DNA of 32,866 bases from Streptosporangium minutum (lineage in GTDB: Bacteria; Actinomycetota; Actinomycetes; Streptosporangiales; Streptosporangiaceae), in the NCBI RefSeq assembly GCF_002149035.1, contig NZ_NGFP01000087.1:1-32866 (forward strand), given 5' to 3'. The translations under genes and the position numbers were made by a program. Below, piece by piece: positions 8,936 to 29,276 of this stretch (positions are counted from its first letter, which is position 1; every line of letters starts with the position of its first letter). The notes under the pieces are model-generated. The model was given only the letters and a program-made list of their open reading frames with translations. It had not been told where the DNA came from and searched no databases.

Positions 8936-8940
8936 GCCCG

Positions 8941-13438: not shown

Positions 13439-13458
13439 GCCGGGCGGACGCCGGCGGA

Positions 13459-13496: not shown

Positions 13497-13522
13497 AAAT
13501 TGAGCGTTTCATCAGAACTCCC

Positions 13523-13552
13523 CCCGCCGGCCGTGTCGAGACGGCCGGCGGG
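13523..13552 (+). terminator. Second hairpin in tandem (12 pairs)
   Basis: CCCGCCGGCCGT pairs with ACGGCCGGCGGG around loop GTCGAG. It follows the first hairpin by 26 nt and precedes the transporter promoter, so it may act as a back-up terminator insulating the transporter operon. Confidence 0.75.
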
Positions 13553-13581
13553 CCATGTGAACAAACCGTTATTGCTGGCTA

Positions 13582-13634
13582 TTGACACCACTTGGAGGTA
13601 TGACGACACTCGAAACATTCCTGAAACGTTCAAA
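13582..13634 (+). promoter_or_regulatory. Transporter operon promoter with tandem LacI-type half palindromes
   Basis: TTGACA (13582-13587) is a perfect -35 element. GACACT (13605-13610), 17 nt on, is a usable -10. GAAACATTC (13612-13620) and GAAACGTTC (13623-13631) are direct copies spaced 11 bp apart, one helical turn, and lie over the start of transcription. Each is a variant of the local operator core with one base missing from the right half. Confidence 0.65.
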
Positions 13635-13697
13635 TAACACCTCGGAACGAGGTGCTGGCGTAAGGCTCGATATGACAAGCGGAGAGGCAGTTCCATC

Positions 13698-14609
13698 GTG
13701 ATTGGCCGGAAGGCGCCACCAGGGCGCCGGCGCATCCCATGGGGTGTCTACCTGGTTCTCCTGCCCACCTTCGCGGCTCTCGCGGTGTTCGCCTACTACC
13801 CCGCCCTGAGCGGGATGCTGCACTCGCTCTACGAGTGGCGCCCCGGCTTCGCCTCGCCGTTCGTCGGCCTGGAGAACTACGTCACCATGCTCGGCGACGA
13901 CCTGTGGTGGGCGTCGTTCCGCAACATCGGGATCATCTTCGTCTGGGCGGTCACGCTCATGTGGGTCTTCCCGCTGCTGGCCGCCGAACTGGTCATGTCG
14001 CTGTCGAGCGAGCGGCTGCGCTTCGTCTTCCGCACCCTGCTCATCCTGCCGCTCGCCTTCCCCGCCGTGGTCAACGTGCTGCTGTGGCAGTTCATGTACG
14101 ACCCGCGGGACGGGGTCGTCAACAGCCTGCTGCGCGCGGTCGGCCTGGACGGGCTGGCGAGCAACTGGATCGGCGACCCGGACACCGCCCTGACCGCGCT
14201 GATGACCGTCGGCTTCCCGTGGGTGGCGAGCCTGCCGTTCCTGGTCTTCCTGTCCGCGCTGCAGAACGTGCCCGCGGAGATCTACCAGGCGGCGGAGGTC
14301 GACGGCGCGGGCAGGCTGCGGCGCCTGTGGAGCATCGACCTGCCGATGATGCTGCGAGACGTCAAGCTGCTGCTGGTCATGGCGGTGATCGCGGTGCTCC
14401 AGTACGGCATGCAGGCGCACATCATGACCAAGGGCGGCCCTGACAACGCCACCCAGGTGCCGGTGCTGCGCATGCTCGACGCCGCCTTCCTGGACACCGA
14501 CTGGGGTTACGCGGCGGCTCTCGGCACCGTGCTGTTCGTCCTGACCCTCGTGGTGAGCGTCGGCGCGCTGCTCGCCGGAAGGAAGGGAGGCCGGAATGCT
14601 CGTGCGTGA
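13698..14609 (+). CDS. Carbohydrate ABC transporter permease, MalF/UgpA type
   Basis: The 303-residue membrane protein has about six helices, beginning at VYLVLLPTFAALAVFAYYP. The EAA loop that docks the ATPase reads AAEVDGAGRLRRLWSIDLP. It belongs to the carbohydrate uptake CUT1 subfamily. GTG 13698 has GGAGAGG 10 nt upstream. It overlaps the second permease gene by 14 nt, indicating translational coupling. The operon contains no ATPase gene; in actinomycetes a shared MsiK-type ATPase encoded elsewhere often powers such importers. Confidence 0.93.
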   Translation: MIGRKAPPGRRRIPWGVYLVLLPTFAALAVFAYYPALSGMLHSLYEWRPGFASPFVGLENYVTMLGDDLWWASFRNIGIIFVWAVTLMWVFPLLAAELVMSLSSERLRFVFRTLLILPLAFPAVVNVLLWQFMYDPRDGVVNSLLRAVGLDGLASNWIGDPDTALTALMTVGFPWVASLPFLVFLSALQNVPAEIYQAAEVDGAGRLRRLWSIDLPMMLRDVKLLLVMAVIAVLQYGMQAHIMTKGGPDNATQVPVLRMLDAAFLDTDWGYAAALGTVLFVLTLVVSVGALLAGRKGGRNARA

Positions 14610-15495
14610 GAAGGCGCGGGCCGCCGAGCCGACCGCGGGGCCGGTGGCCGGGCGGGCGGCGAAGGTCTGGATGACCCGTACGCGCCGGACGGACCTGATG
14701 GCCGGCGCCGTGCTGTCGGTGCTCGCCTTCGCCGGCCTCTTCCCCTACCTGTTCATGCTGGCCGCGTCCGTCAAGGACAACGAGCAGTTCTACGAGAGCT
14801 ACTGGGCGCCCGCGTGGCCGATCAGGCTCGGCAACTACGCGGTGGCGTGGGAGCAGGTCAGCCCCTATCTGTTCACCTCGTTCGTGGTGGCGGGGTTCGC
14901 GATCGTCGGCACCCTGGCGCTCGCCTCGGCCGCGGCGTTCGTGTTCGCCCGCTACCGGTTCCCCGGCCGGAACCTGCTGTTCGGCCTCGTCGCGGCGCTG
15001 CTCATGGTGCCGGCCGTCACCAGCCTCATCCCGCTGTTCGTCCTGATGCGGGACCTGGACATCCTCGACACCCGGCTGGTGCTCATCATCCCGCACATCA
15101 CCGGCAACACCGTGTTCGGCATCGTGATCATGCGCACCTACATGGCGCAGATCCCCGAGGAGATCTTCGAGGCGGCCAGGGTGGACGGGGCCGGCGGGAT
15201 CCGCATGTTCGTCTCCCTGATGATGCCGCTGGCCCGCCCGGTCGTCGGCACGGTGGCGCTGGTCACCGTGCTGGGGGTGTGGAACGACTACTTCTGGCCG
15301 CTCCTCACCGTGCAGACCGACGAGTTCCGCACGATCCCCGCGGGTCTGGCGTTCTTCGCCAACCAGAACGTGCAGCAGTGGGGGCCGCTGTTCGCGGGCT
15401 ACACCCTGGCGAGTCTCCCGCTGCTGCTCATGTTCACCTTCCTGTCCAAATGGTTCCTGGCGGGCATCCAGGGCGGGATCGTCTCCGGCAAGTGA
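14596..15495 (+). CDS. Carbohydrate ABC transporter permease, MalG/UgpE type
   Basis: The 299-residue partner permease has helices from ~35 onward (AVLSVLAFAGLFPYLFMLAA). The EAA loop AARVDGAGGIRMFVSLMMP and the C-terminal FLSKWFLAGIQGGIVSGK end are typical of MalG-like proteins. ATG 14596 is preceded by GGAGG at 5 nt and lies inside the first permease gene, so the two are probably made in equal amounts as the membrane channel heterodimer. Confidence 0.93.
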   Translation: MLVREKARAAEPTAGPVAGRAAKVWMTRTRRTDLMAGAVLSVLAFAGLFPYLFMLAASVKDNEQFYESYWAPAWPIRLGNYAVAWEQVSPYLFTSFVVAGFAIVGTLALASAAAFVFARYRFPGRNLLFGLVAALLMVPAVTSLIPLFVLMRDLDILDTRLVLIIPHITGNTVFGIVIMRTYMAQIPEEIFEAARVDGAGGIRMFVSLMMPLARPVVGTVALVTVLGVWNDYFWPLLTVQTDEFRTIPAGLAFFANQNVQQWGPLFAGYTLASLPLLLMFTFLSKWFLAGIQGGIVSGK

Positions 15496-15527
15496 CCGCT
15501 CCTGCGGCCTGCCCCATGCCATGACTG

Positions 15528-15545
15528 TATTGAAACGTATCAATA
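15528..15545 (+). promoter_or_regulatory. LacI-type operator upstream of the binding-protein gene
   Basis: TATTGAAACGTATCAATA is an 18-bp palindrome with a single mismatched pair, and its core matches the regulator's other sites. It lies between the second permease gene and the binding-protein gene. TGTATT (15526-15531) could be a -10, so a separate regulated promoter for the binding protein is plausible; a clear -35 is not visible. Confidence 0.65.
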
Positions 15546-15578
15546 TCTAACTCACCCCCCTTGAAAGGACCAGGCTCC

Positions 15579-17051
15579 ATGAACACTCCCTCCACACGCC
15601 GCCGCAGGGCGGCGGCGTCGGTCGCGCTGCTGGCCGCCGGCGTGGCGGCCGGCGGATGCGGACTGCTGGGCACCGACAAAAAGGCCGACTCGGACGGCGC
15701 CGCGGGGCAGGGCAAGGTGACCATCACCTTGGCCGGCCCCAACCAGTGGAACACCAGCGGCAGCAGCTTCGGCCCCTCCTGGGAGGCGCTCGTCGACGCC
15801 TTCGAGAAGCGCGAGCCGGGCATCGAGGTGCGCACCCAGGTGCTCCCGCTCGACGGCTTCATCCAGACGATCACGACGCAGCTCGCCGCCGGCACCGCGC
15901 CGGAGCTGGTCTTCAACCAGCCGCCGCACAAGGCCCACGAGGTGCACGCGCTCGACGCCGAACTGGACAAGCCAAACCCCTACGTCGAGGGCAACCAGAA
16001 ATGGCTCGACGTCTTCAAGAAGGAGTACTTCGGCCCCGGGGTCAGCAAGGCGGTCAGCAAGGAGAGCGGGAAGCTCGAATACATCCCGTTCAACCTGGTG
16101 GCGATCGGCCTGTTCTACAACAAGGACGCCTTCGCCAAAGCCGGCGTCGACCAGCCCCCGGCCACCTGGGAGGACTTCAGGTCCGCCTGCAAGAAGCTGA
16201 AGTCCGCCGGCTACGATCCCGTCGCGCTGGACAAGGGCGGGCTCGCGCCGGGATGGACGTGGGAGTCGATCAGCACCCAGCTCCTGGACAAGTACTACGA
16301 CAAGTGGAACGCCTTCGACGCCACCGGCAAGCCCGGCACGGCGCCGACCGTGACCGAGAAGTCGATCAGCAAGGCGATCAAGGAAGGTGCGCTCACCGCC
16401 GCCGGGACGCCGGAGGTGGCCGAGTCGCTCAAGCTCTACAAGGAGTTCTTCGACTGCGGCACGCCGAACTGGACGGGCGTGGCCGACGGCGGCGCCACGG
16501 TCGGCCACCGCGACTTCGTCTCGGGCAAGGCCGCCATGTCGTGGGGCACCGACTTCGCCGTCGAGGCGCTCAAATCGGACGCCAAGTTCCCGATCGGCAC
16601 CATGCCGTTCCCGACGATCACCAAGGCCACCACCCCGCTGTCGACGGACGCACCCGCCAGGTACGGAGCGTCGGTCGGCGGTACCAGCTACATGGTCCCG
16701 TCCACGGTGAAGGGCGAGAAGTACGCCGCCACGATCAAGTTCCTGCAGTTCATGAGCTCGCCGGCGGTCAAGCCGTGGCTGGACGCCACCGGCGGCCTGC
16801 CCGCGATAGAGGGTGTGGAACCCTCTCCCGAGACCGCCGGCCTTCTCCAGGGCGAGTGGGGCAAGCCGTTCCGGGTGACCGGGCTGCCCGGCGGTCCCGA
16901 GGGCACCTCCTTCCGCGACGTGTTCGACGGTTACCTGCTCGGCAAGCGCCCGCTGGACGAGGAACTGCCCGACCTGCAGAAGTGGTGGGACCGCGGGGTC
17001 GAGGCCGGCATCAAGAAGAACAACTGGGGCGAGGAGGACTGGGCCAAGTAG
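15579..17051 (+). CDS. ABC transporter sugar-binding lipoprotein
   Basis: The 490-residue extracellular solute-binding protein (family 1) starts with four arginines, then a hydrophobic stretch and lipobox AAGGC with lipidated Cys27. The mature protein would be membrane-anchored and deliver the sugar to the two permeases. Family features include VTITLAGPNQW near the start, a middle LEYIPFNLVAIGLFYNKDAF, and GTSYMVPSTVKGEKYAATIKF. ATG 15579 is chosen over the upstream in-frame TTG 15561 because AAAGGA (15564-15569) is the ribosome site. A dedicated operator sits upstream. The exact ligand cannot be read from sequence; rhamnose-containing oligosaccharides fit the neighbourhood. Confidence 0.94.
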   Translation: MNTPSTRRRRAAASVALLAAGVAAGGCGLLGTDKKADSDGAAGQGKVTITLAGPNQWNTSGSSFGPSWEALVDAFEKREPGIEVRTQVLPLDGFIQTITTQLAAGTAPELVFNQPPHKAHEVHALDAELDKPNPYVEGNQKWLDVFKKEYFGPGVSKAVSKESGKLEYIPFNLVAIGLFYNKDAFAKAGVDQPPATWEDFRSACKKLKSAGYDPVALDKGGLAPGWTWESISTQLLDKYYDKWNAFDATGKPGTAPTVTEKSISKAIKEGALTAAGTPEVAESLKLYKEFFDCGTPNWTGVADGGATVGHRDFVSGKAAMSWGTDFAVEALKSDAKFPIGTMPFPTITKATTPLSTDAPARYGASVGGTSYMVPSTVKGEKYAATIKFLQFMSSPAVKPWLDATGGLPAIEGVEPSPETAGLLQGEWGKPFRVTGLPGGPEGTSFRDVFDGYLLGKRPLDEELPDLQKWWDRGVEAGIKKNNWGEEDWAK

Positions 17052-17096
17052 CCCGGTCGGAGGCACCCCCGCCACACCCCCCGAGCAGGAGATGCA

Positions 17097-20000
17097 ATGC
17101 CGTATTCACCACGGAACCTACGTAACGCGTTGATCGCCCTCACCCTCGCCCTGCCGGCGGCGGTGACGGCCCTGCCCGCCCCCGCGCTCGCCAGAGCCGA
17201 GGCGGGCGTCACCGGGGTCGCCGTCGGCCAGAGCGCCGTCACCGTCACCGGCAGGGCGAGCGGCCAGGTGGCGCTGTACGCGCTGGACACCTGGCAGGAC
17301 CCCGCGAGCCACACGGACCTGCAGCCGGTCGCCGTCGTCGCGCCCGGCGCCGACGGCGCCTTCAGCGCCGAGGTGCCGCGCATGGACGGCGCGCAGGACC
17401 GGCTGCACGACAAGTTCCTCGCCGTCGCCGACGGCGAGGTGCTGGGCGACGTGCACTACGCCGACGACCTGCGCTTCCCCTCGGCCAACGACGCCCCCTA
17501 CCCGCAGGTGCCCGGCAAGAAGGGCCTGCAGGTCCAGATGACCGACGACGCCGAGGAGATCGGCGTCGAGCACGCGGGCATCAACCTGGCACTGGACTCG
17601 GTCATGATGGCCGGACCCGGCGCGGCGGGCAACACCATCGAGCACGTCTCGCAGGGCAGGACGTACTACTTCGACAAGGGCGCGGTCGCCGGGCTGGACG
17701 CACAGGTCAAGCCGCTGTCCGACAACGGCGTCCTGGTCAACCTGATCGCCATCGTCTACGACAACAAGGCCGCCAACTCCGCCGCGTCCAAGCTGATCCA
17801 CCCCGAGGCCGAGCGCGGCAAGGGCACGGTGTACGCCTTCGACGTGAAGACCGCCGAGGGCGAGGGCTACTTCACGGCCGCGATGGAGTTCTTCGCCCAG
17901 CGCTACAGCCGCGCCGACGCCAAGTACGGCAGGGCGTGGGGCTGGATCGTCGGCAACGAGATCGACGCCCAGCAGTACTGGTACAACATGGGCCCCCAGG
18001 ACCGCGACGTCTTCCTGGAGCAGTACACCAGGGCCATGCGGCTGACCTGGCAGGCCGTGCGCAAGTCCGACGCCAACGCCCGCGTCTACACCTCGCTGAC
18101 CCACTTCTGGACCGGCGCCGTGGGCGACGACCCGAAGTACACCTACAAGGGCCGTGACGTGGTGGAGGGCCTCAACGCCCTGACCAAGGCCCAGGGCGAC
18201 TTCGACTGGAACATCGCCCACCACCCGTATCCGGAGAACCTGTTCAACCCGGCGTTCTGGAACGACAAGACGGCGACCGACAGCTTCGACACGCTGCGCA
18301 TCACGTTCAAGAACATCGAGCTGCTGCCGCGCTACCTGGCCCAGCAACACCTGCTCCACGACGGGCAGCCGCGCCGGGTGATCCTTTCGGAGCAGGGCCT
18401 GAACTCCCAGGACTACACCGACGAGCAGCTCAAGCTGCAGGCGGCGGCCTACGCCTACGCCTACTACAAGATCGCATTCGCTGAGGGCATCGACTCGTTC
18501 ATCCTGCACAGGCACGTCGACCACAAGCAGGAGGGCGGCCTCCGCCTCGGCCTGTGGACGTGGGACGACGGGCACGCCGCGCCGTCCAACGCCGGTGACC
18601 GCAAGCCGGTGCACGAGGTGTTCAAGTACATCGACACCGAGCGCTCGCTCGAGGTGACCGAGTTCGCCAAGAAGATCATCGGGATCTCCGACTGGAAGGA
18701 CGTCATCCCCGGCTTCGACCCGGCGAAGCTGGCGACCAGGAAGCTCCCGGCCACCGTCGGCGTACAGCTGGACGCCAGGCCCGCGCTGGAGCGCGTGGTC
18801 TCCGACTTCGAGCGGGACACCGGCGGCTGGCGGCCCTCCGACAACGCGGCCGCCGTCGAACAGGTGGCCGTCGACGGCGGGCACGCGCTGCGCGTGCGCT
18901 TCGACCGCGACCTGCCGGGCTGGTCGATGTACGCCAAGTCGTACAAGGGCACCGATCTGGTGCTCGACCGGCCGCTCGACGCCTCGCTCAGGTCACAGCT
19001 GTCGGTGTCGGTACGGGTGCCGGAGAACGCCGACGACGGCTTCGAGCCGGGCAACGCCTTCTCCGCGAAGGTCCGCGTCTACGGCCCGGACGGCAAGGTC
19101 GCCGAGGGCGTCGGCGCGATCGACCCCGCCCGCGGCTGGAACCGGCTCACCCTCGACCTGTCGCGCTGGGCCGGCCGCAAGGCGATCTCCCGGGTCAAGG
19201 TGTGGGTACGCGGCTCGGTCGGCTCCGACTGGGCGGGCTCGTACGAGATCGACAGGCTGAGCCTGGCGGCGGCCGCGGTCCCGGCGGCCGACCGGCGCAA
19301 CGTCGAGATCACCGCCGCGACGGGCGAACGCGGCCGGATCGGCTCCACGGTGAGCTTCACCGTGACCAACCACGATGTGCTGCCCATGGCCGGCAAGGTC
19401 ACGTTGCGGGCCTGCGACGGGGTGAGCCTCGCCCCGGCCTCGCTCGGGGTGGGCGGCCTGCGGACCGGCGCCGACCGTACCTTCACCACCGAGCTGACCG
19501 CCTACGCGCCGGCCGACCAGGAGCACCCGGTGGTGTGCGCGGACTACCTCAAGCAGGAGCACCGGGTCACCTTCCGGCTGCCGCCCGAGGCGGCCTACGT
19601 GCCGCCCTCTCCCGATGCCTTCGCCAACCGGGAGCTGTCCGACGGCTTCGACACCGACAGCTCGGCACGCTACCGGACGCACCGGGTCGAGCCGGAGAAC
19701 AAGGAGGTCCCGCAGGTGAGCGTCGGCGGCGGCACGCTGTCGGCGAGCCACGCCTCCGCGAGCTGGTTCGGGCTGCTCTCCTCGGACGTCTCGCCGCGCA
19801 ACCCGGCCTTCAGCACCGCGATCACGGTCAAGGGGTTCCAGGGGAACTCCACGGACATGGACACGGTCTACACCGGCCTGGTGAAGGACGGGCGGACGGA
19901 CGTGGTGGCCTTCTACGTCAACACCCACAAGTTCGCCGGCTTCGAGGTGCGCGGGCCCCAGGTCCCGGGCGGTCTCGCGGTGTTCGGCGTCAAGCAGGGG

Positions 20001-20234
20001 GTGTCGATCCCGGACGGCGGCAGGTTCGCCCTGTCGCTGGTCGGGGACCGGGCGGCCATGTACGCCGACTCCGGCGACGGCTGGCGGCTGGTCACCGCCG
20101 CCACGCTGGAGCACCTGCCCAAGCTGACGGACCCGGACGTGCGGGCGGAATACCGCTACGGCTTCGGCGTCCGCGGTGACGCCGGCGCCACCCCGCTGGT
20201 GTTGGACGCGGTCGAGGGCCGCAGCGTCTCCTAG
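17097..20234 (+). CDS. Large secreted DUF5722-type glycosidase-like protein with C-terminal beta domains
   Basis: The 1045-residue product has a signal peptide (~1-32, cleavage near ALA32). A small beta domain (~38-130) precedes the core (~140-530), which resembles a clan-A glycosidase barrel. Candidate catalytic residues are Glu288 in WIVGNEIDAQ and Glu432 in VILSEQGLNS; HHPYPENLFNPAF and FILHRHVDHKQ are further landmarks. A carbohydrate-binding-like beta domain (~565-720), an Ig/NEW3-like domain (~735-820) and a concanavalin-like C-terminal domain (~845-1040) follow. ATG 17097 has AGGAG 5 nt upstream. It starts 45 nt after the binding-protein gene and is probably co-transcribed with it. The core is paralogous to the 7182-8753 product. 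It likely releases importable sugar outside the cell; its true activity is unknown. Confidence 0.85.
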   Translation: MPYSPRNLRNALIALTLALPAAVTALPAPALARAEAGVTGVAVGQSAVTVTGRASGQVALYALDTWQDPASHTDLQPVAVVAPGADGAFSAEVPRMDGAQDRLHDKFLAVADGEVLGDVHYADDLRFPSANDAPYPQVPGKKGLQVQMTDDAEEIGVEHAGINLALDSVMMAGPGAAGNTIEHVSQGRTYYFDKGAVAGLDAQVKPLSDNGVLVNLIAIVYDNKAANSAASKLIHPEAERGKGTVYAFDVKTAEGEGYFTAAMEFFAQRYSRADAKYGRAWGWIVGNEIDAQQYWYNMGPQDRDVFLEQYTRAMRLTWQAVRKSDANARVYTSLTHFWTGAVGDDPKYTYKGRDVVEGLNALTKAQGDFDWNIAHHPYPENLFNPAFWNDKTATDSFDTLRITFKNIELLPRYLAQQHLLHDGQPRRVILSEQGLNSQDYTDEQLKLQAAAYAYAYYKIAFAEGIDSFILHRHVDHKQEGGLRLGLWTWDDGHAAPSNAGDRKPVHEVFKYIDTERSLEVTEFAKKIIGISDWKDVIPGFDPAKLATRKLPATVGVQLDARPALERVVSDFERDTGGWRPSDNAAAVEQVAVDGGHALRVRFDRDLPGWSMYAKSYKGTDLVLDRPLDASLRSQLSVSVRVPENADDGFEPGNAFSAKVRVYGPDGKVAEGVGAIDPARGWNRLTLDLSRWAGRKAISRVKVWVRGSVGSDWAGSYEIDRLSLAAAAVPAADRRNVEITAATGERGRIGSTVSFTVTNHDVLPMAGKVTLRACDGVSLAPASLGVGGLRTGADRTFTTELTAYAPADQEHPVVCADYLKQEHRVTFRLPPEAAYVPPSPDAFANRELSDGFDTDSSARYRTHRVEPENKEVPQVSVGGGTLSASHASASWFGLLSSDVSPRNPAFSTAITVKGFQGNSTDMDTVYTGLVKDGRTDVVAFYVNTHKFAGFEVRGPQVPGGLAVFGVKQGVSIPDGGRFALSLVGDRAAMYADSGDGWRLVTAATLEHLPKLTDPDVRAEYRYGFGVRGDAGATPLVLDAVEGRSVS

Positions 20235-20550: not shown

Positions 20551-21432
20551 TCAGAGGATGAGCGCGAAGCAGTCCGGGCGGTAGCCCTTCGGCAGCGGGC
20601 CGGGGCTCTCCAGTGCCTTGTTGACGTAGGAGAGCATCACCGGGTCCAGCGTCTCCAGGTTGTGCCCGATCGCGCCCTCGACCAGTCCCTTCAGCGGGCA
20701 GTCGTCCTGGAGCATCCGGTTGGTCACCTGCTCCTCCGGCCCGTCGACGAAGGTCGAGGCCGCCTCCTGCTCGGCCTTCAGCCCGAGGGCGGTGTAGCCG
20801 ACCCCCTCCTCGACCATGGAGGAGTCGTTGAGCTCCCTCATCAGCGGCGAGTCCGAGCGCAGCTCGTCGCAGACCGTCTCCCAGCCGCAGTTCTCGCGCA
20901 ACTCCCCGGTCAGCTCCTGGTGCGGTGCGCCCAGGGTGATCAGCTCCGACACCTTTCCCGCCCCGCCCTCCAGCCGCATGTAGGCCCGGGGCACGATCCC
21001 GCCCAGGCTGTGCCCGACGATCGCCGCCTTCCGCGCCCCGGTGGCCTGGAGCACCCCCTCGACGAAGATCCCCAGCACCTGGGCGGAATCCCTGATCGAG
21101 TTGCTCCACCCGTAGTCGAGCGCGAAGACGCAGTATCCCTGCTTGCTCAGGTACGGCGCCGCCACCGGCCAGGTCACCGCCCCGTTGCTCCTGGCGCCGT
21201 GGACCAGGATCACCGGGTACGGCGAGCCGTCACGGGGCCGGCAGCCGAAGTCGTTGGCGTCCTCCAGCCCGTCGGAGGCCATCCGCCTGGCCTGGGCGAC
21301 CATGTCCGCCTTCGGCACGGCGGGCGCCGTCTCCCGGTTCAGCAGCGTGTCGGCCGCGAACGTGAGGACCGCGAGCCCGGCCACGGCGCACAGGACGATC
21401 ACGACGATGTGGCCGGGACGGAGCTGACCCAC
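20551..21432 (-). CDS. Exported lipase/esterase-type alpha/beta hydrolase
   Basis: The 293-residue protein begins with a single hydrophobic helix (IVVIVLCAVAGLAVLTFAA), a signal anchor or signal peptide. A triacylglycerol-lipase-type fold follows: VILVHGARSNG (oxyanion region), FALDYGWSNS and the nucleophile elbow GHSLGG, with GAPHQ after it. Four or more cysteines in the second half could form disulfides, fitting an extracellular enzyme. Substrates are probably esters or lipids. GTG 21432 is chosen because GGGAGAG lies 5 nt upstream; the frame runs further upstream without support. It is convergent with the sugar locus, divergent from the carbamate kinase gene, and has no LacI-type operator, so it is probably unrelated to that regulon. 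Confidence 0.88.
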   Translation of the reverse strand: MGQLRPGHIVVIVLCAVAGLAVLTFAADTLLNRETAPAVPKADMVAQARRMASDGLEDANDFGCRPRDGSPYPVILVHGARSNGAVTWPVAAPYLSKQGYCVFALDYGWSNSIRDSAQVLGIFVEGVLQATGARKAAIVGHSLGGIVPRAYMRLEGGAGKVSELITLGAPHQELTGELRENCGWETVCDELRSDSPLMRELNDSSMVEEGVGYTALGLKAEQEAASTFVDGPEEQVTNRMLQDDCPLKGLVEGAIGHNLETLDPVMLSYVNKALESPGPLPKGYRPDCFALIL

Positions 21433-21718
21433 TCGATCTCTCCCGTCGGAAGGACGCGGAAGAGAAGCCTTTCCCGTCACCCGGCACGGGTCTATGGCCT
21501 GCCCGCGCCGGTTGGCCCCCCGAAGTTGGCACCGCGCGACAACTCCCGGGAGGCGCCCCCCGCGAGCACGCCCCGGCGCCCGCGCCGCCGCCCGGCGGAG
21601 GAAGTCCGGACGCGGGCAGAAGCCGGCGCCGAGGACCGCGACGAGGTCGCAGGCTGGGGTGGCGTCCTGGCCGTCGACTTCTGTCGAAGAACGGCTCCGC
21701 CTTGGGCAGAGAGTGACC

Positions 21719-22663
21719 ATGAGCCGGATCAGGCAGGCCGTTAGCGTCGCTCGTGTGGGTGAACGAGTACTGATCGCACTCGGCGGCAACGCGATGACGG
21801 CTCCCGACGGAAGCGCCTCGCCGGACGACCAGCGCGGAGCGGTGGAGGGCGCGATGAGCCACGTCACCGCCCTGATCGCGGCCGGCCACCAGGTGACCCT
21901 CACCCACGGCAACGGCCCCCAGGTCGGCAACCTGATCCTGAAGAACCAGCTCGCGGCCGACGTCGTGCCCCCGGTGCCGCTCGACTGGTGCGGCGCGCAG
22001 ACCCAGGCCACGATCGGCACGCTGGTCCTCAACGCCCTGGGCGGCCGTGCCGCGGTCGTGGTGACCCGGACGCTCGTCGACCCCGCCGACCCGGCCTTCC
22101 GCGACCCGGTCAAACCCATCGGCCGCTACTTCACCGAGGCCGACGCCCGGCGCTTCGAAGGGCTCGGCCAGACCTGGCGCCGGTTCGACCGGGGCTGGCG
22201 CCGGGTGGTGGCCTCCCCGGAACCCCTGGAGATCCTCGACGCCCCCGCGGTGGCCGCGCTGACGGCCGCCGGATTCACCGTCGTCGCGGCGGGCGGCGGG
22301 GGAGTGCCGGTGGCCCGCGACGCCGCCGGCCGGCTCACCGGGGTCGAGGCCGTGATCGACAAGGATCTGGCCGCCGCGATGCTGGCGCGCGCCGTACGGG
22401 CCACGGTCCTGGTGATCGCCACCGACGTGCCCCGGGCCGTCGTGGGATTCGGTACGGCCCACGCCCGGCCCATCGGCTCCGTCACCGCGGCCGAGCTGCG
22501 CGTGTTGCACGCGGCCGGGCACTTCGCGGGAGGGAGCATGGGACCGAAGGTCGAGGCCGCGCTCCGCTTCGTCGAGCAGGGCGGCGACCAGGCGGTGATC
22601 ACCTCCCTGGGGGACATCGGGGCGGCGGTCGCCGGGCAGGCCGGCACCGTGGTGCGAAAGTGA
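21719..22663 (+). CDS. arcC: Carbamate kinase
   Basis: The 314-residue amino-acid-kinase-fold enzyme interconverts carbamoyl phosphate plus ADP with carbamate plus ATP. Visible family motifs are VLIALGGNAM, THGNGPQVGNL, the glycine-rich AAGGGGVPV, VEAVIDKDLAAAMLA and FAGGSMGPKVEAAL. ATG 21719 follows GAGAG; GTG 21755 is an alternative that would begin right at the conserved strand. It is followed after 27 nt by a ring-opening amidohydrolase gene, and no arginine deiminase or ornithine transcarbamylase gene is nearby. It may therefore harvest ATP from carbamoyl phosphate produced in a nitrogen-heterocycle pathway rather than in the arginine deiminase route; that role is inference. Confidence 0.93.
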   Translation: MSRIRQAVSVARVGERVLIALGGNAMTAPDGSASPDDQRGAVEGAMSHVTALIAAGHQVTLTHGNGPQVGNLILKNQLAADVVPPVPLDWCGAQTQATIGTLVLNALGGRAAVVVTRTLVDPADPAFRDPVKPIGRYFTEADARRFEGLGQTWRRFDRGWRRVVASPEPLEILDAPAVAALTAAGFTVVAAGGGGVPVARDAAGRLTGVEAVIDKDLAAAMLARAVRATVLVIATDVPRAVVGFGTAHARPIGSVTAAELRVLHAAGHFAGGSMGPKVEAALRFVEQGGDQAVITSLGDIGAAVAGQAGTVVRK

Positions 22664-22690
22664 ACACGACCCGATTGGAAGGTGGCAGGC

Positions 22691-23782
22691 ATGCCGGAAC
22701 CGATTGAAGTGCGCAAGGTGGCCATCGAGAGCGTGACCGACGCCTCCGGGCTGACCCGGCTCATCGACGACGGGGTGATCGAGGCCCACCGGGTGCTCGC
22801 GGTCATCGGCAAGACCGAGGGCAACGGCGGGGTCAACGACTACACCCGCATCCTGGCCGACCGTGCCTTCCGCGAGGTGCTCGCCGCCAAGGGGCACCCG
22901 TCCCCCGAGAGCGTCCCGCTGGTGTGGTCCGGCGGCACCGACGGCGTGCTGAGCCCGCACGCGACGGTCTTCGCCACCACCGCGGACGCCGAGCCGGGCG
23001 ACGAGCCGCGCGTCAGCGTCGGCATCGCGATGAGCGACGTCATCCTCCCCGAGGACATCGGCCGCCCCGCCATGGTGGAGAAGGTCGCCGCCGGAGTGCG
23101 CGAGGCCATGAAGACCGCCGGGATCGACGATCCCGCCGACGTCCACTACGTCCAGACCAAGACGCCCCTGCTGACCCTGGCCACCATCAACGACGCCAAG
23201 TCCCGGGGCAAGGACGTGGTGATCGAGGACACCGGCCCGTCCATGGACATCTCCAACTCCACCACCGCGCTCGGCGTCGCGGTCGCGCTCGGCGAGATCG
23301 AGATGCCCACGGCCGACCAGATCCACCGTGACCTGTCGCTGTACTCCTCCGTCGCGTCCTGCTCCTCGGGCGTCGAGCTGGACCGTGCGCAGATCGTGGT
23401 CGTCGGCAACGTGCGCGGCATCGGAGGCCGCTACCGGATCGGCCACTCGGTCATGAAGGACGCGCTGGACGCCGACGGGATCTGGGAGGCGATCCGCTCC
23501 AGCGGCATCGACCTGCCCGACCGTCCCCACCCGTCCGACCTGGGCGACAGGCTGGTCAACGTCTTCATGAAGTGCGAGGCCGACCCGTCGGGCAGCGTCC
23601 GGGGCCGCCGCAACATCATGCTCGACGACTCCGACGTGCACTGGCACCGCCAGATCAAGGCCACCGTCGGCGGCGTCGCGGCCAGCGTCACCGGCGACCC
23701 GGCCGTCTTCGTCTCGGTCGCCGCGGTCCACCAGGGCCCCAGCGGCGGCGGCCCGGTCGCCGCCATCGCCGACCTCGGCTGA
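22691..23782 (+). CDS. Ring-opening amidohydrolase (cyanuric acid amidohydrolase / barbiturase family)
   Basis: The 363-residue protein matches the AtzD/TrzD/barbiturase family, which opens the rings of cyanuric acid or barbituric acid. The family has three similar domains, each supplying a Lys and a Ser. Here the likely pairs are Lys41 (IGKTEGNG) with Ser80 (WSGGTDG), Lys157 (QTKTPLL) with Ser226 (SCSSG), and Lys294 (FMKCEAD) with Ser351 (GPSGGGP). ATG 22691 has GGAAGGTGG upstream; GTG 22682 overlaps that site and is rejected. It is co-directional with carbamate kinase at 27 nt. Sequence inspection alone cannot tell whether cyanurate, barbiturate or another cyclic imide is the substrate. The gene ends at a strong hairpin. 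Confidence 0.93.
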
Positions 23783-23783
23783 T

Positions 23784-23839
23784 CCGTCCCGGACGCGGTA
23801 CGGTCCTGCTCCCGTGCGGGCCGTACCGCGTCCGGACGG
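23784..23839. terminator. Bidirectional terminator hairpin
   Basis: CCGGACGCGGTACGG (23789-23803) pairs perfectly with CCGTACCGCGTCCGG (23821-23835). It extends outward past a bulge to CCGT/ACGG. The loop carries a small CCCG/CGGG stem. It starts directly after the amidohydrolase stop and ends one base before the stop of the small minus-strand gene. Confidence 0.85.
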
Positions 23840-23840
23840 G

Positions 23841-23957
23841 TCAGCCCCAGAGCGCGTAGACGATCCCGAGGGCCGCGGCGAAGAACAGGACCTCGACCAC
23901 GACGCGTGCCGCCCGGGACTCTCCTGTCCGCCGACCGCGCTCGACCGTCTCCGGCAT
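23841..23957 (-). CDS. 38-residue single-helix membrane protein
   Basis: ATG 23957 follows a strong ribosome site (GGAAGGGAG, 5 nt gap). The product has a polar, arginine-rich N-terminal half (MPETVERGRRTGESRAAR) and then one hydrophobic helix (VVVEVLFFAAALGIVYALWG) reaching the C-terminus. That makes an inner-membrane microprotein with the N-terminus probably inside. The frame is open to 24218, but the upstream part is translated palindromic repeat. I do not recognise a family. It ends at the shared hairpin with the amidohydrolase gene and is divergent from the SseB-like gene. Confidence 0.65.
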   Translation of the reverse strand: MPETVERGRRTGESRAARVVVEVLFFAAALGIVYALWG

Positions 23958-24036
23958 GACCGCTCCCTTCCGTCCGGATTCCCGACAGGAGGATCGTCGC
24001 CCGTCCCCGGCCCCGTCCGCATGGGGCTGGTGTCCC

Positions 24037-24176
24037 GGTTTCTCCGGGACTCCGGGTCCCGGAGTTCCCGCCCCCTCCCGGGACTCCGGGACCGGGAGCC
24101 CCGCACGGCTTCTTCGGGGTTCCGGGTCCCGGAGTTCCCGCTCCCTCCCGGGACTCCCGGCCCCGGAGTTCTCGCC
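24037..24176. repeat. 70-bp tandem duplication built on a GC palindrome
   Basis: Unit 24037-24106 repeats at 24107-24176, best conserved over 24051-24087 versus 24121-24157 with one mismatch. Each unit carries a palindrome of the form CTCCGGGTCCCGGAG (TTCCGGG in copy 2). A related palindrome is at 32427-32444. It fills the spacer between two divergent genes. Confidence 0.85.
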
Positions 24177-24193
24177 TCCCCACCGGTCGCGGG

Positions 24194-24199
24194 TAGGCT
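24194..24199 (+). promoter_or_regulatory. -10 element for a leaderless transcript
   Basis: TAGGCT lies 8 nt before GTG 24208 and there is no ribosome site, so transcription probably begins at or next to the start codon. No convincing -35 is visible. Confidence 0.5.
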
Positions 24200-24207
24200 C
24201 CGGATCC

Positions 24208-24762
24208 GTGCCGAGCATTCCCCAGCCCCTGGTCCCCGATGACGACGGCAGCGCCGACGCCTCCGTTTCGTCCGCGCTCGCGGCCTACTCCGCCGGTACG
24301 GCCGACGCCGGGGCGGTGATAGCCGCGCTGGGCGGAGCCCGGCTGCTCGTCCCGGTGGTGGCCCTGCTGACGGCGTCGGAGGTCGGGGAGCACGGCCTGC
24401 GGCAGGAGAAGGAGAGCGAGATGGCCCTGCCGAAGCTCATCGGCAACGACGGGCGCGAGGCGGTGCTCGCCTTCACCGGGGTCGAGCCGCTGCGGCTCTG
24501 GCGCCCCGACGCCCGGCCCATCCAGGCCACCACCCTCCAGGTCTGCCAGGCGGCGGTACACGAGAACGCGGCCGCGGTGGTGGTCGACGTGGCGGGTCCG
24601 GTGCCCTTCGTGATCGAGGGGAGCGTCCTGCGGGCGTTCGCCGCGGTCGAGTCGGGCACCGTCGACCAGCTCGGACCCGAGGTCACCGTGGCGCGGATGG
24701 AGGAGGCGGCTCCGGCCCCTCGGCGGCGGCGGTTCGGCTGGCCGTTCCACGGACGGGACTGA
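24208..24762 (+). CDS. SseB-family protein
   Basis: The 184-residue soluble protein resembles the SseB N-terminal domain family found widely in actinomycetes. Landmarks are ARLLVPVVALLTA, MALPKLIGNDGREAVLAFTGVEPLRLW, and AVVVDVAGPVPFVIEGSVLRAF. Its biochemical role is not known. The C-terminus is basic (APRRRRFGWPF). GTG 24208 is preferred because it sits at the expected transcription start and the upstream frame is repeat sequence. It appears to be monocistronic, with repeats on both sides. Confidence 0.82.
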   Translation: MPSIPQPLVPDDDGSADASVSSALAAYSAGTADAGAVIAALGGARLLVPVVALLTASEVGEHGLRQEKESEMALPKLIGNDGREAVLAFTGVEPLRLWRPDARPIQATTLQVCQAAVHENAAAVVVDVAGPVPFVIEGSVLRAFAAVESGTVDQLGPEVTVARMEEAAPAPRRRRFGWPFHGRD

Positions 24763-24842
24763 CCTTCTTCCCCGGGGAGCCGGGGCACGGCCGTCCCCGG
24801 GACGCCGGGGCCCGGCAGGGATCTCCCAGAGCCCTGTCACCC

Positions 24843-24917
24843 GGTCCGGACCTTCGTCTCGTGACTGGGTCCGGACTTTCGTCTCGTGACCGGGTCCGGA
24901 TCCTCGTCTCGTGACCG
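24843..24917. repeat. Three tandem 25-bp repeats
   Basis: Units 24843-24867, 24868-24892 and 24893-24917 follow GGTCCGGAYYYTCGTCTCGTGACYG, with 1-3 differences between them and no spacers. Each contains TCCGGA. They lie between the SseB-like gene and the prepilin peptidase unit. There is no evidence of coding. Confidence 0.95.
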
Positions 24918-24983
24918 AGGCCGGCCCCTTCGGATCCCATGATCCGGCAGGCGTCTTCCGGGGACGCCGGGAGCGGGGCCGGA

Positions 24984-24989
24984 TATGGT
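24984..24989 (+). promoter_or_regulatory. -10 element for the prepilin peptidase unit
   Basis: TATGGT lies 6 nt before GTG 24996, which starts a 21-codon frame without a ribosome site. This is the pattern of a leaderless transcript. A -35 is not evident. Confidence 0.5.
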
Positions 24990-24995
24990 CGGCCC

Positions 24996-25061
24996 GTGGA
25001 GGAGCGCGGCGAGCGAGCAGGCGACCGTCCGTGGGCGGCGCAGGGCGGGGAGGCCTCGTGA
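24996..25061 (+). CDS. 21-codon leaderless mini-ORF coupled to the prepilin peptidase
   Basis: The frame begins GTG-GAG-GAG (VEERGERAGDRPW...) immediately after a -10-like TATGGT. Its TGA (25059-25061) overlaps the GTG (25058-25060) of the peptidase. This geometry suggests a translated leader that delivers ribosomes to the next gene. The peptide has no recognisable features and may only serve coupling. Confidence 0.4.
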   Translation: MEERGERAGDRPWAAQGGEAS

Positions 25062-25822
25062 TCCTTCTGCCGGTCCTGGCGGCGCTCACCGGCCTGGCGG
25101 CCGGGCGCTGGACGCGGGGCCTGGTGGTCCGGCACTCGGTGGCCGAGGGCGAGCCGCTCCGGAGGGACTGCCCGCACTGCGGCGCCACGCTGTCCGCCGC
25201 GCGCTGCCCCGGATGTTCCGGACGGATCGGGCCGCCGCCGCTGGCGGTGGAGCTCGTCACCGCGCTGGCACTGGCCCTTCTCGCCCTGCGCGCCGTGTGG
25301 GCGGCCCGCTCCGGCGCCGTCCCGGCGGGGCAGCCGCCCGGGCCGCTGCCGGAGGTCGTGACGGCGGTCGAACTGGCCGCCTACGGATGGCTGGCGGTGG
25401 TCGCCGTCGCGCTGGTCTTCGTCGACGCCGCCGTCCACCGGCTGCCCGACCGGCTCACCCTCGCCGCCTACCTCGGCACCGCCGCCCTGCTCACGGCGAC
25501 GGCCATGCTCGGAGGCCGGTTCGACGACCTGCTCGGAGCCGGGCTGGGCGGGCTCGCCCTGGCGGCCTTCTACCTGGTGCTGTTCCTGGTCAACCCGGCG
25601 GGCATGGGGCTGGGCGACGTCAAACTCGCGGCTGCCCTCGGCACCGCGCTCGGCTGGCTGGGCTGGGACGCGCTGGTCGCCGGGGCCTTCCTGGGCTTCC
25701 TGGCGGGCGGCCTCTACGGAGTCGCGCTGATGATCCTGCGGCGCGCCGGCCGTAAGAGCGAGATCCCCTTCGGCCCCTTCATGGTCGTGGGGGCCTTCGC
25801 GGCCATCCTCACCGGTCTCTGA
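25058..25822 (+). CDS. Type IV prepilin peptidase (A24 family)
   Basis: The 254-residue membrane enzyme cleaves leader peptides of type IV pilin-like proteins and, in family members with both activities, methylates the new N-terminus. The two catalytic aspartates are probably Asp123 (FVDAAVHRLPD) and Asp186 in the diagnostic GMGLGDVKL. The N-terminal cytoplasmic part has two Cys pairs (CPHC 38-41, CPGC 50-53), as in zinc-binding members. About seven hydrophobic helices are visible. GTG 25058 has GGGGAGG upstream. A prepilin peptidase next to aro genes is common in actinomycetes, so the position is probably ancestral; no pilin genes are in the window. Confidence 0.92.
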   Translation: MILLPVLAALTGLAAGRWTRGLVVRHSVAEGEPLRRDCPHCGATLSAARCPGCSGRIGPPPLAVELVTALALALLALRAVWAARSGAVPAGQPPGPLPEVVTAVELAAYGWLAVVAVALVFVDAAVHRLPDRLTLAAYLGTAALLTATAMLGGRFDDLLGAGLGGLALAAFYLVLFLVNPAGMGLGDVKLAAALGTALGWLGWDALVAGAFLGFLAGGLYGVALMILRRAGRKSEIPFGPFMVVGAFAAILTGL

Positions 25823-25936
25823 CCGCCGCCTGCCGCCTGCCGCCTGCCGCCGGTCGCGGGCCGGGTGGGCGCCGATCGGGCCGACGCCACCATCGATGAT
25901 CAATACCTTCGTCTGTTAGCCTCCTCGTGTACGAAT

Positions 25937-25960
25937 TATTTAGTTCGCTCTAACGAAATA
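25937..25960. promoter_or_regulatory. Inverted repeat, probable MarR operator
   Basis: TATTTAGTT (25937-25945) and AACGAAATA (25952-25960) are inverted with 8 of 9 matches around a 6-bp centre. They lie in a conspicuously A/T-rich patch 19 bp before the regulator start. A MarR dimer commonly binds such a site and represses its own gene. Confidence 0.6.
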
Positions 25961-25978
25961 CAGGAGAGGATCTCCGTC

Positions 25979-26428
25979 TTGTCGAGGGAGCGACTGCTGG
26001 CGGCCCTGGCCGAGGCGGGCCGGGAGCACAGCACCACCGCCGTGATGTTCCACACCGCGGTCAGCGCGCGGATGGGCCTGGGCATGACCGAGGCGAAGGC
26101 GCTCGACCTGCTGCGGCGGCTGGGCCCGCTCGCCGCGGGAGAGATCGCCGGGCACTCCGGCCTGACCCCGGCCTCGGTGAGCGGGCTGATCGACCGGCTG
26201 GAGCGCAAAGGTTTCGTCCGGCGGATACGCGACACCGAGGACCGGCGCCGGGTCATCGTGGAGATCAGGAACGACGGCGTCGCCGGGTTCGGCGCGCTGT
26301 TCGAGGACGTGGTCCAGGGCCTGGAAGGGCTGTACGCCACCTACACCGACGAGCAGCTCGAACTCATCCTCGATTTCCTGCGCAGATCCGCCGAGGTCCA
26401 GCGCGCGGCCACCGCCGGACTCGGCTGA
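25979..26428 (+). CDS. MarR-family transcriptional regulator
   Basis: The 149-residue winged-helix protein has the recognition helix region [22 protein letters not shown] and the wing [12 protein letters not shown], both typical of MarR. TTG 25979 is chosen because GGAGAGG (25963-25969) is 9 nt upstream and the N-terminus then matches the family length. The frame is open to 25865, but that runs through the operator. The gene stands between the prepilin peptidase and aroC with its own A/T-rich promoter region, so it is probably an insertion into an otherwise conserved neighbourhood. Its ligand and targets beyond autoregulation are unknown. Confidence 0.88.
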
Positions 26429-26486
26429 CGTCTCACCTGATGAGCTGAGGCCATATCAGTGGGCGGCACATGGAAGACTTGGCACC

Positions 26487-27665
26487 ATGTTGCGCTGGTT
26501 GACCGCTGGAGAGTCCCACGGCCCTGAGCTCGTCGCGATCCTGGAAGGCCTGCCCGCCGGGGTGGGAGTGACCACGGCCGATATCGATGGAGCACTGGCG
26601 AGGCGTCGCCTGGGCTACGGCCGCGGCGCCCGGATGAAGTTCGAGCAGGACGTGGTGAGCGTCGTGGGCGGCGTGCGGCACGGCCGCACGCTCGGCAGCC
26701 CCATCGCCATTCGCGTGGGCAACACCGAGTGGCCCAAATGGGAGACCGTCATGGCCGCCGACCCGGTGGACCCGGCGCTGCTGGAGGGCCAGGCCCGCAA
26801 CGCGCCGCGTTCGCGCCCGCGCCCCGGCCACGCCGACCTGGCCGGCATGCAGAAGTACGGCTTCGACGACGCCCGCCCGGTGCTCGACCGGGCCAGCGCC
26901 CGCGAGACCGCCGCCCGCGTGGCCCTCGGCCAGGTCGCCAAGAACTTCCTCAAGCAGGCACTCGGCGTCGACATCGTCAGCCACGTCGTCTCGATCGGCG
27001 CGGCACAGGCCACGCAGGGCGTCGTCCCGGGCCCCGGCGACATGGAGGCGGTCGACGCCGACCCGGTGCGCTGTGCCGACCCGGCCGGCAGCGCCGCGAT
27101 GGTCGCCGAGATCGACAAGGCGCACAAGGAGGGCGACACCCTCGGCGGCGTCGTCGAGGTGCTCGCCTACGGCCTGCCGCCGGGCCTGGGCAGCTACACC
27201 CACTGGGACCGCCGCCTCGACTCCCGCCTCGCCGCAGCCCTGATGGGCATCCAGGCGATCAAGGGCGTCGCCGTCGGCGACGGCTTCGAGACCGCGCGCC
27301 GTCCCGGCTCCCGGGCCCACGACGAGATCGAGAACACCGCCGACGGCGTGCGCCGCATGACCAACCGGGCCGGCGGCGTCGAGGGCGGGATGACCAACGG
27401 CGAGCCGCTGCGCGTCAGCGCGGCGATGAAGCCGATCTCCACGGTGCCCCGCGCGCTGGCCACGATCGACGTGCTGACCGGTGAGGCGGCCAAGGCCCAC
27501 CACGAGCGCTCCGACGTGTGCGCGGTCCCGGCCGCCGCGATCGTCGCCGAGGCGATGGTCGCGCTGATCCTCGCCGACGCCGCGATCGAGAAGTTCGGCG
27601 GCGACTCCGTCGAGGAGGTCGCCCGTAACCTGTCCGGCTACCTCTCGTCGATGGTGATCAAGTGA
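26487..27665 (+). CDS. aroC: Chorismate synthase
   Basis: The 392-residue enzyme converts 5-enolpyruvylshikimate-3-phosphate to chorismate with reduced FMN, the last common step to aromatic amino acids. Signatures include [18 protein letters not shown], the FMN/substrate motif [27 protein letters not shown] and [19 protein letters not shown]. The length is normal for the family. It is first in an aroC-aroK-aroB cluster, 34 nt before aroK. Precursor supply for aromatic residues in the nearby peptide cluster is possible but not implied. Confidence 0.97.
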
Positions 27666-27699
27666 ACGGGAAGCCCGGCGAGCAGCCAGAGGAGGCGCA

Positions 27700-28203
27700 G
27701 TGAGTCCCCGCGTAGTTCTGATCGGTCCTCCCGGATCGGGCAAGTCGACCGTCGGCCGGCTGCTGGCCGACCGCCTGGGGGCCGCCTTCCGCGACACCGA
27801 CACCGACGTGGAGGCCGTGGCGGGCAAGCCGGTGGGCGACATCTTCGTCGAGGACGGCGAGGAGCGCTTCCGCGAGCTGGAGGCGGCGGCCGTACGGCTG
27901 GCGCTGGCCGAACACGACGGCGTGCTCTCCCTCGGCGGCGGCGCGGTCCTGGCCGAGACCACGCGGGAGCTGCTGGCCGGCCACTCGGTGGTCTACCTTG
28001 AAGTGGGGCTGTCGCAGGCCGTGCAGCGGGTGGGCCTGGCCTCGGCGCGGCCGTTGCTCGTGCTGAACCCGCGCAGCCAGCTCAAGAAGCTGATGGACGC
28101 CCGCCGCCCGATCTACGAGGGGCTGGCCACGGTCGTCGTGGCGACCGACGAGCGCAAGCCCGACGAGGTCGTCGACGAGATCGTGAAGGGGCTGCGGCCG
28201 TGA
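27700..28203 (+). CDS. aroK: Shikimate kinase
   Basis: The 167-residue P-loop kinase phosphorylates shikimate at the 3-hydroxyl. Walker A is GPPGSGKST near the N-terminus. Shikimate-binding DTDTDVE, FRELE and LSLGGGAVL follow, and the lid region is around ARPLLV. GTG 27700 is preceded by GAGGAGG. The stop overlaps the aroB start in GTGA, indicating tight coupling. Confidence 0.96.
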
Positions 28204-29276
28204 CGGTCTCCAGGATCAAGGTCCACGGCGACGCCCCCTACGACGTGGTGATCGGCGCCGGCGTGCTCGGCGAGCTCCCCGGCCTGCTCGGCTCCGGGGT
28301 CCGCACCGTCGCCGTGATCCACCCGGCGAGCCTGCCGGAGATCGCGCGGCCGGTCTGCGGCGCGATCGAGGCCGCGGGATACGCGGTCGTCCCGCTGCCG
28401 GTGCCCGACGCCGAGCAGGCCAAGACGGTCGAGGTGGCCGCCCAGCTCTGGTCGGCCTTCGGCCGCTACGGCATCACCCGCTCCGACGCCGTGGTCGGTG
28501 TCGGCGGGGGAGCCACCACCGACCTGGCCGGGTTCGCCGCCGCCACCTGGCTGCGCGGGGTCAAGGTCGTGCAGGTGCCGACCACCCTGCTGGGCATGGT
28601 CGACGCCGCGGTCGGCGGCAAGACCGGGATCAACACCCCCGAGGGCAAGAACCTGGTCGGTTCCTTCCACCCCCCTGCCGGGGTCCTGTGCGACCTGGCC
28701 ACCCTGGTCTCGGTGCCCCGCGACGACTACGTCGGCGGTCTCGCGGAGATCATCAAGGGCGGCTTCATCGCCGACCCGGCGATCCTGGCGCTCATCGAGG
28801 ACGACCCCGCCGGCGCCCGGCTCCCCGAGGGGCGGCACACCCGCGAGCTGATCGAGCGGAAGATCCAGATCAAGGCCGACGTCGTCGGCGCCGACCTGCG
28901 CGAGGGCGGCCTGCGGGAGATCCTCAACTACGGGCACACCCTGGCCCACGCCATCGAGCGGGTCGAGGAATACCGGATGCGCCACGGCGAGGCCGTGGCA
29001 ATCGGGATGGTCTACGCCGCGGAGCTGTCCCGCCTGGACGGCCGGATCGGCGCCGACGTCGTGGACCGGACCCGGTCCATCCTGACCTCGGTCGGGCTGC
29101 CCGTCTCCTACCGCCGAGACGCCTGGCCCGAGCTCCGTGACCACATGCGCCTGGACAAGAAGAGCCGCGGCGCCAAGCTGCGCTTCGTGGTCCTGGACGA
29201 CCTGGCGAAGGTGTCCCCGCTGGAGGACCCGCCCGAGGCCCTGCTCGAAGCCGCCTACGAGGAGGTCGCCCGGTGA
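28200..29276 (+). CDS. aroB: 3-dehydroquinate synthase
   Basis: The 358-residue NAD- and metal-dependent enzyme cyclises DAHP to 3-dehydroquinate. NAD-binding [40 protein letters not shown] and the metal-ligand region [11 protein letters not shown] with [10 protein letters not shown] are all present. The GTG start overlaps the aroK stop by 4 nt. A type II dehydroquinase gene (aroQ), a frequent follower elsewhere, is absent here; the next gene is an SGNH hydrolase. Confidence 0.97.

Follow-up and report, generated by a model that had tools for sequence, protein, structure and literature searches.

The DNA analysed here is a stretch of 32,866 nucleotides from Streptosporangium minutum (the window; contig NZ_NGFP01000087.1), in which two adjacent forward-strand genes encode a carbamate kinase (CK) and a ring-opening amidohydrolase of the AtzD/TrzD family, barbiturase clade. 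The CK open reading frame (ORF; 21719..22663) runs from an ATG at 21719 to a TGA at 22663, and the amidohydrolase gene (22691..23782) from an ATG at 22691 to a TGA at 23782. The spacer between them (22664..22690) is 27 nt long, as stated in a first-pass annotation made from the sequence. An in-frame GTG at 21755 is a second possible start for CK, because the alignments of 31 of the 47 near-full-length neighbour CKs begin only at residue 12–16 of the longer form. Neither a terminator-like nor a sigma-70-like site was found when positions 21400–24100 were scanned; given the absence of a terminator-like site and the opposite orientation of the upstream lipase-like gene (20551–21540), a single two-gene transcription unit is plausible. 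We consider it probable that this pair is the detached tail of a conserved actinobacterial gene cluster for oxidative pyrimidine breakdown, which would lead from uracil through barbiturate and ureidomalonate to carbamoyl phosphate and ATP.

Identity and conservation of the pair

The hydrolase gave a full-length match to PF09663 (489 bits, positions 1–358 of 358) and scored 527 bits against TIGR02714. Its closest solved structure was the Rhodococcus erythropolis barbiturase 5hwe (578.9 bits), and the best cyanuric acid hydrolase (CAH) reached 323.1 bits. The protein also passed the NCBIfam cyanuric acid amidohydrolase equivalog model (471.7 against a cut-off of 360), but this pass is in our view misleading, and CAH was rejected as the enzyme name because 579 versus 323 bits favours barbiturase. 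At the position of CAH Arg188 the alignment places Asn in both the window protein and 5hwe, and the Lys of the Ser-Lys dyad is kept; by comparison, PMC4051656 describes a barbiturase subgroup in which this Arg is replaced by glutamine. Among 210 collected copies, which come from overlapping loci and represent 161 distinct sequences, the dyad Lys occurs together with Asn in 194, two have Arg and 14 fall outside the search pattern. Judged by its sequence, the window hydrolase is better called a barbiturase than a CAH, with a predicted activity on barbiturate.

The kinase belongs to PF00696 and scored above the cut-off of the subfamily model NF009007 (276.8 versus 266 bits). All four motifs typical of CK (GGNA, GNGPQ, DKD and SMxPK) are present in it, and each is found in 147–150 of 151 collected copies. 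In a tree of 51 chosen CKs, built with a quick method and containing two long branches, the 39 barbiturase-linked CKs fell on one side of a branch with an SH-aLRT value of 95, and the arginine-deiminase CK of the window's own genome fell outside this group. That second CK belongs to a separate operon on contig C23 with arginine deiminase (ADI) and ornithine transcarbamylase (OTC) genes. An arginine deiminase context for the window CK was thus ruled out, in line with the first-pass annotation, which had noted the lack of such a partner; a Pfam or NCBIfam scan of 20 window ORFs detected neither ADI nor OTC. The window CK differs in context from its ADI-linked counterpart and appears to be dedicated to the barbiturase locus.

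The pairing proved to be conserved in the survey of actinomycete genomes that the first-pass annotation had suggested; a lack of pairing in relatives, which it had named as a refutation, was not observed. In a class sample of 296 Actinomycetes genomes (completeness filter 90), a PF09663 gene was present in 69, comprising 64 genomes with a barbiturase-clade member (29 genera) and five with only distant members, whose proteins are 34–42% identical to the window hydrolase. In 56 of the 64 barbiturase-clade genomes the gene immediately preceding barbiturase, in the same orientation, is CK, with 27–216 bp between profile edges; CK is fragmentary in two of these 56, being in two pieces in G018 and cut by the contig end in G044. 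Strong CK matches (>200 bits) occurred in 103 of the 296 genomes, namely in 62 of the 64 barbiturase-clade genomes and 41 of the 232 others. The adjacency together with the co-occurrence table ruled out chance neighbours. Among the 80 closest named loci, a near-full-length CK was found upstream in 47, a remnant in one, none in 30 and a contig cut in two. The remnant, in Sinosporangium album (L033, 7620–7963), is in two frames upstream of barbiturase and is apparently a stage in the loss of the pair.

Partner genes outside the window

The first-pass annotation had placed a missing step beyond the window and named a biuret- or ureidomalonate-type hydrolase for it. CK, however, needs carbamoyl phosphate, which neither hydrolase would give. 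AllG (PF06545), a subunit of oxamic transcarbamylase (AllFGH), was found in 25 of the 31 genomes of a search among relatives, including the window's own, where AllG (324 bits) lies on contig C359 beside an AllF truncated at the contig end, and AllH (PF11392, 99.6 bits) lies on contig C203. Identity to E. coli AllG was 43–50% for the AllG proteins compared. Of the 296 genomes in the class sample, 72 have AllG, comprising 63 of the 64 barbiturase-clade genomes and nine others; the five genomes with only distant family members had neither AllG nor the group-5 CoxL described below. In the nine AllG-only genomes, CK lies 356–374 bp from AllG (profile edges) in five and about 9 kb away in three, and is missing in G267; with CK within 10 kb in eight of nine, its association with the transcarbamylase thus persists in genomes that lack barbiturase. 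From the 80 named loci, 24 were submitted and 23 genomes were searchable; AllG was present in all 23, seven of which have barbiturase without an adjacent CK. The missing step is likely to be an AllFGH-type transcarbamylase encoded in the same genome, outside the window.

The second partner is a molybdenum hydroxylase, CoxMSL. The model NF040766 ("aerobic CO dehydrogenase group 5"), searched at E values up to 1e-200, matched 64 of the 296 genomes, namely 63 of the 64 barbiturase-clade genomes (G018 had no match) and G243. In the window's own genome the large subunit CoxL, which NCBI labels as group 5, is encoded on contig C203 (G000:C203:2728-5097). The closest solved relative of a CoxL representative was quinoline 2-oxidoreductase (459 bits), compared with 399 bits for the best CO dehydrogenase. 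At the site of the CO dehydrogenase cysteine loop, with 8uem aligned for comparison, 37 of 44 CoxL copies carry PYRGAGR; of the seven without it, six are shorter than 200 residues and one has 685 residues. AYxCSFR, the copper-binding loop of aerobic CO dehydrogenase, was not found in the cluster CoxL. The label "group 5 aerobic CO dehydrogenase" is thus probably a misannotation. Conversion of uracil to barbiturate needs hydroxylation next to a ring nitrogen; CoxMSL may be the uracil dehydrogenase, to which, to our knowledge, no gene has so far been assigned.

Of the 63 genomes that have both AllG and barbiturase, 40 carry the two on a single contig, within 18–48 kb in 33, at 90–133 kb in six and at 1.7 Mb in one. 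In 16 joined clusters picked from these 40 genomes, AllF, AllG, PucR, CoxM, CoxS, CoxL, CoxG, HyuA and HyuB were present throughout, accompanied by barbiturase in 15 and CK in 14 (both lie outside the joined stretch in G074). A permease was found in 14 (12 at at least 63% identity), a CaiB-type CoA-transferase in 11, a nitrilase-family amidase in 10 (eight at at least 64% and two at only 35% identity), an AccDA-like carboxyltransferase in nine and cytosine-deaminase-like genes in two. AllH exceeded 60 bits by blast in only three of the 16; scans of the candidate gene in six actinomycete clusters, one of them from a same-genus genome (L231), confirmed it every time. Four same-genus genomes carry AllF, AllG, PucR, the permease and CoxMSL in one locus, with no barbiturase in the 40-kb stretches covered; in the window's genome, CoxL accompanies AllH on C203, and HyuAB and an AccDA-like gene lie on contig C135. 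In the plasmid collection, Embleya sp. NBC_00888 holds AllFGH, CoxMSL, nitrilase, CK and barbiturase in 43 kb, and Nonomuraea gerenzanensis holds AllF, AllG, CoxMSL, HyuAB, CaiB, AccDA and barbiturase in a 50-kb stretch in which no CK was found.

A search of the phylum yielded 12 genomes outside the class Actinomycetes with a family member, of which 11 loci were examined. Five of them (L259, L261, L263, L267 and L271) carry barbiturase, CK, AllF and AllG co-directionally in about 10 kb beside a divergent PucR, and the runs of L259 and L271 extend into CoxMSL. Of the others, L272 shows CK, barbiturase and PucR before its stretch breaks off, L268 lies on a contig of only 3 kb, and L258 and L274 are distant family members.

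A comparable row of genes was found on the IncX5 plasmid NZ_OQ821180.1 (L255, 6746–14387), where a ring-opening amidohydrolase, an NCS2 permease, AllH, FdrA, AllG and CK (arcC) are followed by LysR. This ring-opener is of the CAH type (580 bits) and keeps the CAH Arg, and its permease passed the pbuX xanthine permease model (421.7, cut-off 414). The stretch has matches with an identity of at least 95% in 49 plasmid records (Citrobacter, Klebsiella, Enterobacter and others), and in 47 of these the match spans at least 80% of the stretch; no megablast match to the operon was found in E. coli genomes. Records carrying the plasmid amidohydrolase include shower and clinical isolates. The operon suggests a mobile phosphorolytic cyanurate route on enterobacterial plasmids.

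Within the window, positions 23956–29276 downstream of the pair hold SseB, prepilin-peptidase-like and MarR genes, followed by genes for chorismate synthase, shikimate kinase and dehydroquinate synthase. SseB and aro genes are the neighbours of the pair in the window's family, and this block adjoins barbiturase in many Streptosporangiales; a constant third gene directly beside the pair was ruled out, since the genes between AllFGH and CK-barbiturase vary in the class sample. Positions 1–6152 hold the end of a nonribosomal peptide synthetase and MbtH, and positions 7182–20234 hold genes for a LacI regulator, an alpha-L-rhamnosidase and a sugar ABC transporter between two DUF5722 proteins.

A proposed route and its rivals

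The following route, in which every reaction, direction, substrate and flux is deduced from gene content, order, linkage and co-occurrence, would accommodate these genes. Uracil would enter through the PucR-regulated permease and be oxidized to barbiturate by CoxMSL, and the window barbiturase would open barbiturate to 3-oxo-3-ureidopropanoate (ureidomalonate). The AllFGH-type transcarbamylase encoded elsewhere in the genome would then convert this N-acylurea and phosphate to malonamate and carbamoyl phosphate, from which, with ADP, the window CK would form ATP, NH3 and CO2. Malonamate may pass through malonate and malonyl-CoA to acetyl-CoA by means of the nitrilase-family amidase, the family III CoA-transferase and the AccDA-like carboxyltransferase, where these are present. 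In E. coli, AllFGH forms oxamate and carbamoyl phosphate from oxalurate (PMC11326118). The phosphorolysis is proposed for ureidomalonate because it and oxalurate are both N-acylureas that end in a carboxylate and differ by a single CH2.

Several findings weigh against this route. Adjacent CK is absent in eight of the 64 barbiturase-clade genomes (G007, G114, G185, G292, G220, G200, G179 and G188); in G007 the barbiturase lies 140 bp from the contig end, the CK of G200 is instead near AllG (about 4 kb away), and in G179 and G188 (L163 and L149, of one genus), which keep AllG and CoxL, no strong CK match was found anywhere, the barbiturase of G188 being in two pieces. Of the 30 CK-less loci among the nearest 80, 21 are named Nonomuraea. 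G185 is the lone barbiturase-clade genome without AllG and has CoxL. The window CK stays below the cut-off of the arcC equivalog model TIGR00746 (319 versus 358.25 bits), and AllF likewise misses the cut-off of the FdrA model NF004760 (349.8 versus 433) in the single actinomycete protein scanned, that of the relative G234. The full run is absent in six of the 11 loci of other classes; L270 has a 67% identical barbiturase but no partner gene across about 32 kb, and in L266 barbiturase is accompanied by PucR and CoxMSL, with CK and AllFG missing. HyuA and HyuB (caprolactamase-like; for example, L112 3–3874) have no step in the scheme despite their presence in every joined cluster, and HyuAB was not seen in the 43-kb Embleya cluster. 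With CaiB in 11, nitrilase in 10 and AccDA in nine of 16 clusters, the step from malonamate to acetyl-CoA is not universal. The Asn at the CAH Arg188 position is weakened as evidence: distant members share it (L144, L145, L148, L150, L274 and one L147 copy, judged by eye), and Arg occurs in L146, the other L147 copy, L258 and the plasmid enzyme, so Asn is not a clean barbiturase marker and does not by itself name the enzyme. Fisher values on co-occurrence ignore shared ancestry and overstate independence; the recurrence across distant lineages carries more weight.

An unlikely explanation, although the least improbable of those set against the pyrimidine route, is a purine cluster in which PucR, a xanthine-type permease, a xanthine-dehydrogenase-like enzyme and AllFGH acting on oxalurate work together, the "barbiturase" opens a purine-derived ring and CK recovers ATP. 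PucR (domain score of 98 bits) and the permease family, Xan_ur_permease, also occur in purine catabolism, the plasmid permease exceeds the pbuX cut-off, and the AllFGH activity described in PMC11326118 is on oxalurate. However, the one actinomycete permease scanned scored best with the RutG and uracil permease models (349 and 258 bits, versus 168 for pbuX; all below cut-off), and the ring-opener is far nearer the solved barbiturase than any other entry. Cytosine-deaminase-like genes occur in two of the 16 clusters, and no allantoin gene was recognized among the scanned cluster proteins, which took in only a minority of the unclustered genes.

Least probable of all is a hydrolytic version, in which hydrolysis gives carbamate or ammonia and CK uses free carbamate. 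The CK reaction is reversible in principle, but forming carbamoyl phosphate from carbamate would consume ATP to no obvious purpose in this setting, and the genome encodes a candidate transcarbamylase. We regard a CAH acting in an s-triazine route as scarcely more credible: the NCBIfam model is passed and a CAH-type enzyme keeps the same partners on the plasmids, whereas the bit scores favour barbiturase and the window protein shares its Asn with 5hwe, as some distant members may do. A classical route, in which barbiturase and ureidomalonase give malonate and urea and CK is simply transcribed along with barbiturase, for instance to regulate the carbamoyl phosphate used in pyrimidine synthesis, seems improbable to us. 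Ureidomalonase is on record (the title of a 2001 paper cited in PMC4051656), and some genomes hold barbiturase without an adjacent CK; against this stand the presence of AllG with barbiturase in 63 of 64 genomes and the recurrence of the linkage between CK, AllF, AllG and a ring-opener in other Actinomycetota classes and on enterobacterial plasmids.

We thus favour the phosphorolytic pyrimidine route. The first-pass annotation had proposed a short cyclic-ureide route, on cyanurate or barbiturate, in which CK recovers energy or a carbamoyl group; conserved linkage and co-occurrence support such a route well, and barbiturate fits better than cyanurate, so that the idea of energy recovery was right in kind and the substrate is most likely barbiturate derived from pyrimidines. 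Oxalurate is HOOC-CO-NH-CO-NH2, and ureidomalonate and carboxybiuret differ from it by an additional CH2 and NH, respectively, next to the carboxyl group. On balance, and by a small measure, we lean towards a broader reading in which AllFGH-type complexes are general acylurea phosphorylases that work with different ring openers, each feeding a CK: on oxalurate in E. coli, on ureidomalonate in Actinomycetota and on carboxybiuret from cyanurate on the enterobacterial plasmids, with the group-5 "CODH" as uracil dehydrogenase and the window pair in an ATP-yielding uracil pathway. If so, the oxidative pyrimidine pathway would gain a genetic basis and a candidate uracil dehydrogenase gene, energy-conserving phosphorolysis would take the place of hydrolysis, genomes called CO oxidizers by the group-5 model would probably be pyrimidine users, and the recently identified AllFGH would extend from one substrate to a family, with a mobile cyanurate-type version on enterobacterial plasmids. 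The proposed pathway looks widespread in soil bacteria and is apparently undescribed; a search of open-access literature, which takes in few subscription journals, turned up no account of a pathway that joins barbiturase with CK or with AllFGH. Likewise, the main text of PMC12507026, on reductive uric acid degradation, contains none of "barbitur", "fdra" and "duf1116".

Comparison with known systems

The oxidative pyrimidine pathway of Rhodococcus erythropolis consists of uracil dehydrogenase, barbiturase and ureidomalonase, and the 2001 work on ureidomalonase was reportedly done in this organism. The present cluster resembles it in having a relative of the barbiturase 5hwe and, by inference, in the oxidation of uracil to barbiturate. 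The last step of the Rhodococcus pathway is hydrolytic and yields malonate and urea, whereas phosphorolysis with ATP recovery is proposed here. The R. erythropolis locus was not found in our searches; in the genus of G027, a family member was present in five of 39 genomes and scored 391–403 bits, like the distant member of G027 itself.

With the arginine deiminase pathway (ArcABC), the route would share a CK turning carbamoyl phosphate and ADP into ATP; unlike in ArcABC, the window CK has no ADI or OTC partner, and the ADI-linked CK of the same genome lies on another branch of the tree. Cyanuric acid degradation (AtzD, BiuH or AtzE, and AtzF) has a homologous ring-opener, but one of a different clade and followed by hydrolytic steps; the plasmid operon instead couples a CAH-type enzyme with AllFGH and CK. 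For its nitrifier metagenome-assembled genomes, PMC12625717 reports that atzD was not found.

A close likeness in gene set is to the oxamate branch of the E. coli allantoin (ALL) pathway, with AllFGH (fdrA, ylbE and ylbF) and AllK (ybcF): three transcarbamylase subunits, a CK and a presumed N-acylurea substrate with a terminal carboxylate. In the actinomycetes, barbiturase and a molybdenum hydroxylase stand in place of the allantoin genes, and CK adjoins barbiturase rather than AllFGH in 56 of the 64 class genomes.

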